Below, piece by piece: positions 39,802-40,350 of a stretch of DNA of 64,000 nucleotides. The DNA comes from Paracoccus shandongensis (GTDB lineage: Bacteria > Pseudomonadota > Alphaproteobacteria > Rhodobacterales > Rhodobacteraceae): contig NZ_JAFLRK010000031.1 of assembly GCF_017315735.1 (NCBI RefSeq), positions 1 to 64,000 on the forward strand, read 5' to 3'. The notes beneath the pieces were generated by a model that saw only the letters and a program-made list of their open reading frames with translations, made no database searches and was not told the origin of the DNA. A program made the translations under genes and the position numbers. Every line of letters starts with the position of its first letter. The stretch's first letter is position 1.

Positions 39802-40155
39802 ATGACCGAGTTGCAGGAAGGCGCCCCGCTGATCGCGCCCTCGACCACCGACCATCCGCTGTATGACAGCGTGGTGGAGGCCTGCAAGACCGTCTATGAC
39901 CCGGAAATCCCGGTCAACATCTTCGACCTGGGGCTGATCTACACGATCGACATCAACGACCAGAACGAGGTGCGGGTCATCATGACCCTGACCGCGCCGG
40001 GCTGCCCCGTCGCGGGCGAGATGCCGGCCTGGGTCGCCGACGCGGTCGAGGCCATTCCGGGCGTCAAGCAGGTCGATGTGGAAATGACCTTTCAGCCGCA
40101 ATGGGGCATGGACATGATGTCCGACGAGGCGCGGCTGGAACTGGGGTTCATGTAG
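39802..40155 (+). CDS. sufT: SufT-like Fe-S assembly protein (MIP18/DUF59)
   Basis: 117 residues of one MIP18/DUF59 domain: VYDPEIPVNIFDLGLIYTIDI and TLTAPGCPVAGEMP with the conserved Cys. SufT/PaaD-type members help mature [Fe-S] enzymes. Start at 39802 with AGGAAC upstream. The last 70 bp of this gene, together with 20 bp after it, recur identically past the poly-G run. The next gene on this strand encodes an IscA-type protein, consistent with an Fe-S role. Confidence 0.9.
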   Translation: MTELQEGAPLIAPSTTDHPLYDSVVEACKTVYDPEIPVNIFDLGLIYTIDINDQNEVRVIMTLTAPGCPVAGEMPAWVADAVEAIPGVKQVDVEMTFQPQWGMDMMSDEARLELGFM

Positions 40156-40175
40156 GCCGCCTTTGGCGGCGGTCG
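40086..40175. repeat. First copy of 90-bp duplication
   Basis: Covers the 3' end of the sufT-like gene through its stop and the first hairpin (GCCGCC-TTT-GGCGGC), ending GGTCG. It is identical, base for base, to 40261-40350. Confidence 0.97.
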
Positions 40176-40261
40176 GGGGGGGGGGGGGGGGGGGGGGGGG
40201 GGGGGGGGGGGGGGGGGGGGGGGGGGGGGGGGGGGGGGGGGGGGGGGGGGGGGGGGGGGGG
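40175..40261. repeat. 87-base homopolymer G run, probable sequencing artefact
   Basis: Uninterrupted G on the given strand. It starts where the second copy continues into the strong hairpin CTGGGGGAC-TTCAC-GTCCCCCAG. Such a run is not known as a stable natural element in bacterial chromosomes and is what two-colour sequencers report when signal is lost. Confidence 0.9.
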
Positions 40262-40350
40262 ACCTTTCAGCCGCAATGGGGCATGGACATGATGTCCGAC
40301 GAGGCGCGGCTGGAACTGGGGTTCATGTAGGCCGCCTTTGGCGGCGGTCG
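40261..40350. repeat. Second copy of 90-bp duplication
   Basis: Identical to 40086-40175; unlike the first copy it continues into non-homopolymeric sequence, so it is the likely genuine junction. Removing 40176-40350 would restore one continuous locus. Confidence 0.95.

Follow-up and report, generated by a model that had tools for sequence, protein, structure and literature searches.

A run of 87 G between two copies of a gene end in a Paracoccus draft genome: a probable artefact of read signal loss and an unmerged contig join

The window analysed here covers the initial 64 kb of contig C25 in the Paracoccus shandongensis draft genome (3.93 Mb in 82 contigs). It contains 87 consecutive G on the given strand (40175-40261) between two copies of the end of a gene, and this arrangement is almost certainly an artefact of some kind. 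The explanation that we favour, at a probability of about 0.85 for the whole chain of events, is that sequencing signal was lost at a hairpin, that the left contig consequently ended in false poly-G, and that it was then joined to its right neighbour with an overlap of 88 bp left unmerged. The true sequence at this locus is very probably shorter by 175 bp.

The first-pass annotation of the window had reported the G run between perfect direct copies of 90 bp, and both observations were confirmed: positions 40086-40175 and 40261-40350 are identical base for base, and no longer match is possible at either end. The second-longest G run in the window has 8 bases, about 10^-39 runs of 87 G would be expected in 64 kb by a first-order Markov estimate, and the copies flanking the run are the sole direct repeat of at least 60 bp with a period below 400 in the window. 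The natural unit of the copy is 88 bp (40088-40175 and 40263-40350), a refinement of the earlier description by two bases. We take A40262 for a join base and G40261 for part of the G run; since both happen to equal the native bases of those positions, the apparent copy measures 90 bp instead of 88. The surplus stretch is 40176-40350 (175 bp), in agreement with the earlier proposal, and both genes that flank the insert are complete and undamaged. The features of the locus are as follows.

39802-40155, + strand: gene of a SUF-associated Fe-S assembly protein (sufT-like), complete, with its stop codon inside copy 1 (TIGR02945, 151.7 bits against a cut-off of 143.4; PF01883)
40088-40175, + strand: copy 1 of the flank (88 bp), which is the genuine one (the agreement of 40086-40087 with copy 2 is due to chance)
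40176-40261, + strand: 86 surplus G (a run of 87 with native G40175), read as the poly-G end of the left contig
40262, + strand: A at which two contigs are joined, probably recoded from N (a single A is also present at C1:430591 and, without poly-G, in C63 and C65)
40263-40350, + strand: copy 2, read as the unmerged 88-bp (k-1) overlap that opens the right contig
40351-40373, + strand: hairpin CTGGGGGAC-TTCAC-GTCCCCCAG, presumed place of read signal loss, belonging to a family with 13 sites in the genome
40374-40391, + strand: tail ACCCCCTGTGGGATATTT, found after most hairpins of the family
40473-40844, + strand: gene of an A-type (SufA/IscA-like) Fe-S carrier, complete (TIGR00049, 104.9 bits against a cut-off of 58.8; PF01521)

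The model sufA_proteo (TIGR01997) scored below its cut-off for the last of these genes (113.6 against 136.2 bits).

Directly after the second copy stands CTGGGGGACTTCACGTCCCCCAG, which folds into a stem of 9 bp with a loop of 5 bases; the two arms are those pointed out in the first-pass annotation. Like an intrinsic terminator, it is a GC-rich 9-bp stem located 3' of a gene with TATTT further on, but unlike one it has ACCCCCTGTGGGA between stem and TATTT, which is reached only after 13 further bases past the stem, and there is no plain T run. A search of Rfam with positions 39700-40900 gave no match up to E = 1. The hairpin belongs to a family, GGGGGACTTC(A/G)CGTCCCCC, which has 13 sites in the 3.9-Mb genome, mostly followed by ACCCCCTG(T/C)GGGATATTT, a tail motif present at 12 places.

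The genome contains only two G runs of at least 20 bases, the run of 87 in the window and a run of 86 on contig C1 (430505-430590), which together explain all 135 matches to 20 consecutive G. The C1 site repeats the build seen in the window with the end of another gene: the left flank of the run has an exact 88-bp direct copy on the right, the copy is directly followed by a hairpin of the same family (CCGGGGGACTTCACGTCCCCCGG), and the whole, consisting of 86 G, an A, the 88-bp copy and then the hairpin, spans 430418-430679. The inserts measure 175 bp in the window and 174 bp on C1. A single A follows the G run at both sites (40262 and C1:430591), and the A on C1 must be foreign because the native base there is C. 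At both sites the run, on the strand that leads into the hairpin, stops just before the hairpin's first base, apart from the join base and the copy.

The ends of the contigs were compared with each other. Of 164 ends in the genome 161 were obtained, and 28 that consisted mostly of N were dropped, leaving 133 usable ends, among which 29 pairs have exact terminal overlaps of at least 12 bp. The maximum overlap is 88 bp, reached five times (by four contigs with themselves and by one pair of contigs) and never exceeded; therefore, k-1 of the assembler was 88. Among maximal exact repeats of at least 60 bp in the part of the genome that was fetched, 88 bp is also the commonest length (13 of 36), and the commonness of 88-bp overlaps and repeats is a mark of de Bruijn assembly with this k-1. 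The length of the duplicate equals that of the contig-end overlap at both poly-G sites, being 88 bp on C1 and 88 bp plus the chance-matching G and A in the window. The four contigs that end in an exact 88-bp overlap with their own start, as would be expected of a circular molecule, are C41 (21324 bp), C57 (7634 bp), C59 (6300 bp) and C61 (5000 bp); they are perhaps plasmids, and the overlap of C61 itself consists of short tandem repeats.

Single A bases that appear to mark joins occur at four places in the assembly, two of them without poly-G. Contig C65 (L284, position 1367, 1-based) has an 88-bp repeat, a single A and another 88-bp repeat, the two repeats being 50 bp apart in their other copy; contig C63 (L282, position 1739, 1-based) has a single A between two 88-bp stretches that are 44 bp apart in contig C60. 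Both are probable contig joins. Since a single A thus sits between 88-bp repeats where there is no poly-G, the A in the window and on C1 is best read as the join between two contigs, the left one ending in the G run; the A itself is probably a recoded N. The repeat-rich sequence at the joins in C65 and C63 may be misassembled.

The locus was compared with those of relatives, as had been suggested by the first-pass annotation. The body of the sufT-like gene (39798-40085) was matched in 100 of the 101 genus genomes searched (the genome studied here included, and one match being weak, with 24 bases). Thirty loci were fetched, one of which was the window itself, and in the scanned stretch of the 29 relatives' loci there is no G or C run of at least 8 bases; neither the run nor the duplicate is found in any of them. 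In one relative (locus L031, genome G122) the flank GCCGCCTTTGGCGGCGGTCG is joined straight to CCGGGGGACTTCACGTCCCCC. The copies were also aligned, as DNA, with a single relative, which yielded nothing beyond these findings. The intergenic gap is 317 bp in the window and 142 bp without the 175 bp, and is 79-178 bp in 13 of the 29 relatives' loci, namely those that keep the next gene by a score cut, so that removal of 40176-40350 does give a gap of normal size, as was earlier claimed. These comparisons bear on the possibility that the tract of about 87 G is real and the 90-bp tandem duplication of the gene end likewise, arising for instance by slippage or break repair at the hairpin. The deposited sequence itself and the adjoining hairpin speak for such an origin; against it stand the equality of copy length and k-1 at both sites, the foreign A after the run on C1 together with the A that marks joins elsewhere, the sharing of one build by two unlinked sites, and the lack of this build in all 29 relatives' loci. 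We consider a real tract and duplication extremely improbable.

In the favoured explanation, reads of the + strand, proceeding 5' to 3', would meet the GC-rich hairpin at 40351 and lose their signal, and would be called as G to their ends. As stated in PMC13218037, two-colour chemistry confounds lost signal with G, and a read whose loss persists becomes poly-G up to its end; the genome studied here was presumably sequenced by such chemistry. A de Bruijn graph with k = 89 would then fork just before the hairpin, into a poly-G branch that becomes the end of the left contig and another branch that passes through the hairpin. From such a fork it follows that the right contig should open with the 88-bp fork sequence, as is backed by the signature of k-1 = 88 and by a toy graph (below). 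A later step would have joined the contigs through one placeholder base, seen as A and presumably at first an N, with the overlap left unmerged.

For the toy graph, the two flanks were joined in a script, reads of 150 bases whose calls change to G from the first hairpin base onwards were simulated, and de Bruijn graphs were built. When k was 89 and signal was lost on the + strand, a fork with a poly-G branch arose there, and the right unitig opened with CCTTTCAGCCGC at position 40263, immediately past the A, just where the assembly has it. At k = 87 this start moved two bases further on, and reads that kept their signal gave a single unbroken unitig. A point against the favoured explanation is that the toy graph with k = 89 yields 88 G where 87 and 86 are observed. 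When signal was lost on both strands (0.7 each), the graph also broke to the right of the hairpin; there is no such break in the assembly, and therefore signal loss would have been mostly one-sided. The proposal of the first-pass annotation that reads ended in false poly-G and that the resulting contig end was spuriously joined is thus supported by the contig ends with k-1 = 88, the twin site on C1, the single-A joins, the de Bruijn simulation and the empty sites of the relatives.

The G run resembles the known poly-G tails of two-colour Illumina reads: it is long and pure, sets in abruptly where good sequence ends, and is on the strand that leads into a structure. Unlike such a tail, it sits in a finished contig and has a duplicate of the flank after it. 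The duplicate in turn resembles known unmerged k-1 overlaps of de Bruijn assemblies in being as long as the longest contig-end overlap, 88 bp, whereas here a single A connects the copies inside one scaffold and poly-G stands to the left. Among the papers listed in searches on poly-G artefacts in assemblies, on joins made by scaffolders and on Paracoccus sequencing, no account of poly-G between unmerged k-1 copies was met, which is no proof that none exists; the available parts of PMC3446322 and PMC4053845 do not state how overlapping contigs get joined.

Other genomes were surveyed for G tracts. At 20 places in 9 of 125 genus genomes, and in 28 of 394 family genomes, 40 G are followed by another base; runs of 40 A were found in none of the 125 genus genomes. 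Paracoccus binzhouensis wg1 (scaffold98.1-size19284) has 86 G, an A, an 85-bp copy and a hairpin; the name of this scaffold is presumably of the form given by SSPACE. Genome G020 is very probably that of P. binzhouensis wg1, to judge from a contig of equal length (19,284) and the same 85-bp copy; to look for a k-1 signature in it, 34 ends from 20 contigs were compared, and they have one overlap, of 58 bp. A further congener (G080) shows poly-G, one N, a copy of 138-140 bp and a hairpin. In genome G057 (loci L011, L018 and L021-L028), ten tracts of 40 G have no flank copies; many of them stand at contig ends or immediately ahead of the right arm of a CCCCCGGACCCCCGAGGTATTT-type hairpin.

A hairpin follows all four of the copy-bearing G runs in the genus, two of which are in the genome studied here, and each of the four runs is on the strand that reads towards its hairpin. 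This directionality is relevant to an alternative in which the G run is a scaffold gap of N turned to G between contigs with an unmerged overlap, an artefact that involves no loss of signal. The recoding would be the work of a tool that stores N as G, as two-bit coding of the SOAP type does. An unmerged overlap of 88 bp would be expected on either account, and scaffolds of Vibrio fortis Dalian14 and others carry between-contig G runs of many lengths, in keeping with recoded gaps. However, the two joins without poly-G in the same assembly show one A and no stretch of G, a fork in the graph exactly at the first base of the hairpin would still need a cause, the repeated hairpin being far shorter than k, and the constant orientation of the four runs towards the hairpin speaks against recoded gaps as well. 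On balance a recoded gap is unlikely.

Equally unlikely, in our judgement, is an artefact that arose as in the favoured explanation but with the signal lost for a reason other than the hairpin. Eleven of the 13 hairpins of the family are without a G run, one of them with the identical 23-mer, and therefore the hairpin is not a sufficient trigger. A general rule that a hairpin lies 3' of poly-G tracts was examined over all bacteria and found unsupported: of 143 distinct blocks, 79 were close to an end and a further 10 had N or flanks that were too short, leaving 54 to be scored, and fold energy favoured the 3' side in 27 of the 54, while among 38 tracts compared by stem length the longer stem was downstream in 15 and upstream in 16, with 7 ties. 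The lack of a 3' bias in this set favours a cause other than the hairpin. Against such a cause, both G runs of the genome stop at the first base of one hairpin family with 13 sites in 3.9 Mb, and at 9 of 11 places in the genus (1 upstream, 1 tie) and 8 of 11 other places in the family (2 upstream, 1 tie) the longer stem is on the downstream side of the internal G tract. The stem test was designed after the fold-energy test had failed, and its figures are descriptive because of this post hoc design and because the genus set includes the two loci of the genome studied here; the tendency towards a 3' hairpin is no more than a trend, confined to the genus and family sets. The hairpin is likely the local trigger of signal loss, insufficient alone. 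That it is a plausible cause, as the first-pass annotation put it, remains a conjecture: a hairpin follows each of the four copy-bearing G runs of the genus, but sister hairpins stand without a G run.

The 175 bp at the window locus and the 174 bp on C1 are very probably not real, and users of this genome should treat them with caution. A simple test for such cases is to compare the length of a suspiciously perfect duplicate with that of the longest exact overlap between contig ends. Because G tracts of at least 40 bases are present in the numbers of genus and family genomes given above, scans for strange repeats will meet more of them. It is about as likely as not that the terminator-like hairpins repeated at gene ends across Paracoccus and its family halt Illumina reads in a reproducible way. 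Long poly-G inserts, with or without an unmerged k-1 duplicate, would then be a recurrent, directional class of error that marks these hairpins in public genomes.

Across bacteria, tight direct copies flank 3 of 89 runs of 80 G followed by A (among the 80 loci listed, of 87), and therefore the build is rare in that set; by a looser test, copies of at least 30 bp were found at 7 of 54 internal tracts. The scaffolds of V. fortis Dalian14 (L079, L103, L109, L132) are rich in internal G runs, which are 70 to 288 bases long, and direct copies (86, 46 and 79 bp) accompany three of these; this probably reflects a like assembly fault in a genome that is not GC-rich. On contig_155 of Halococcus thailandensis JCM 13552 (L083, 7186-7266, - strand), 81 G with an 89-bp direct copy are preceded by CTGTCTCTTATACACATCT and N; CTGTCTCTTATACACATCT resembles a Nextera adapter, which would have been left inside the contig.
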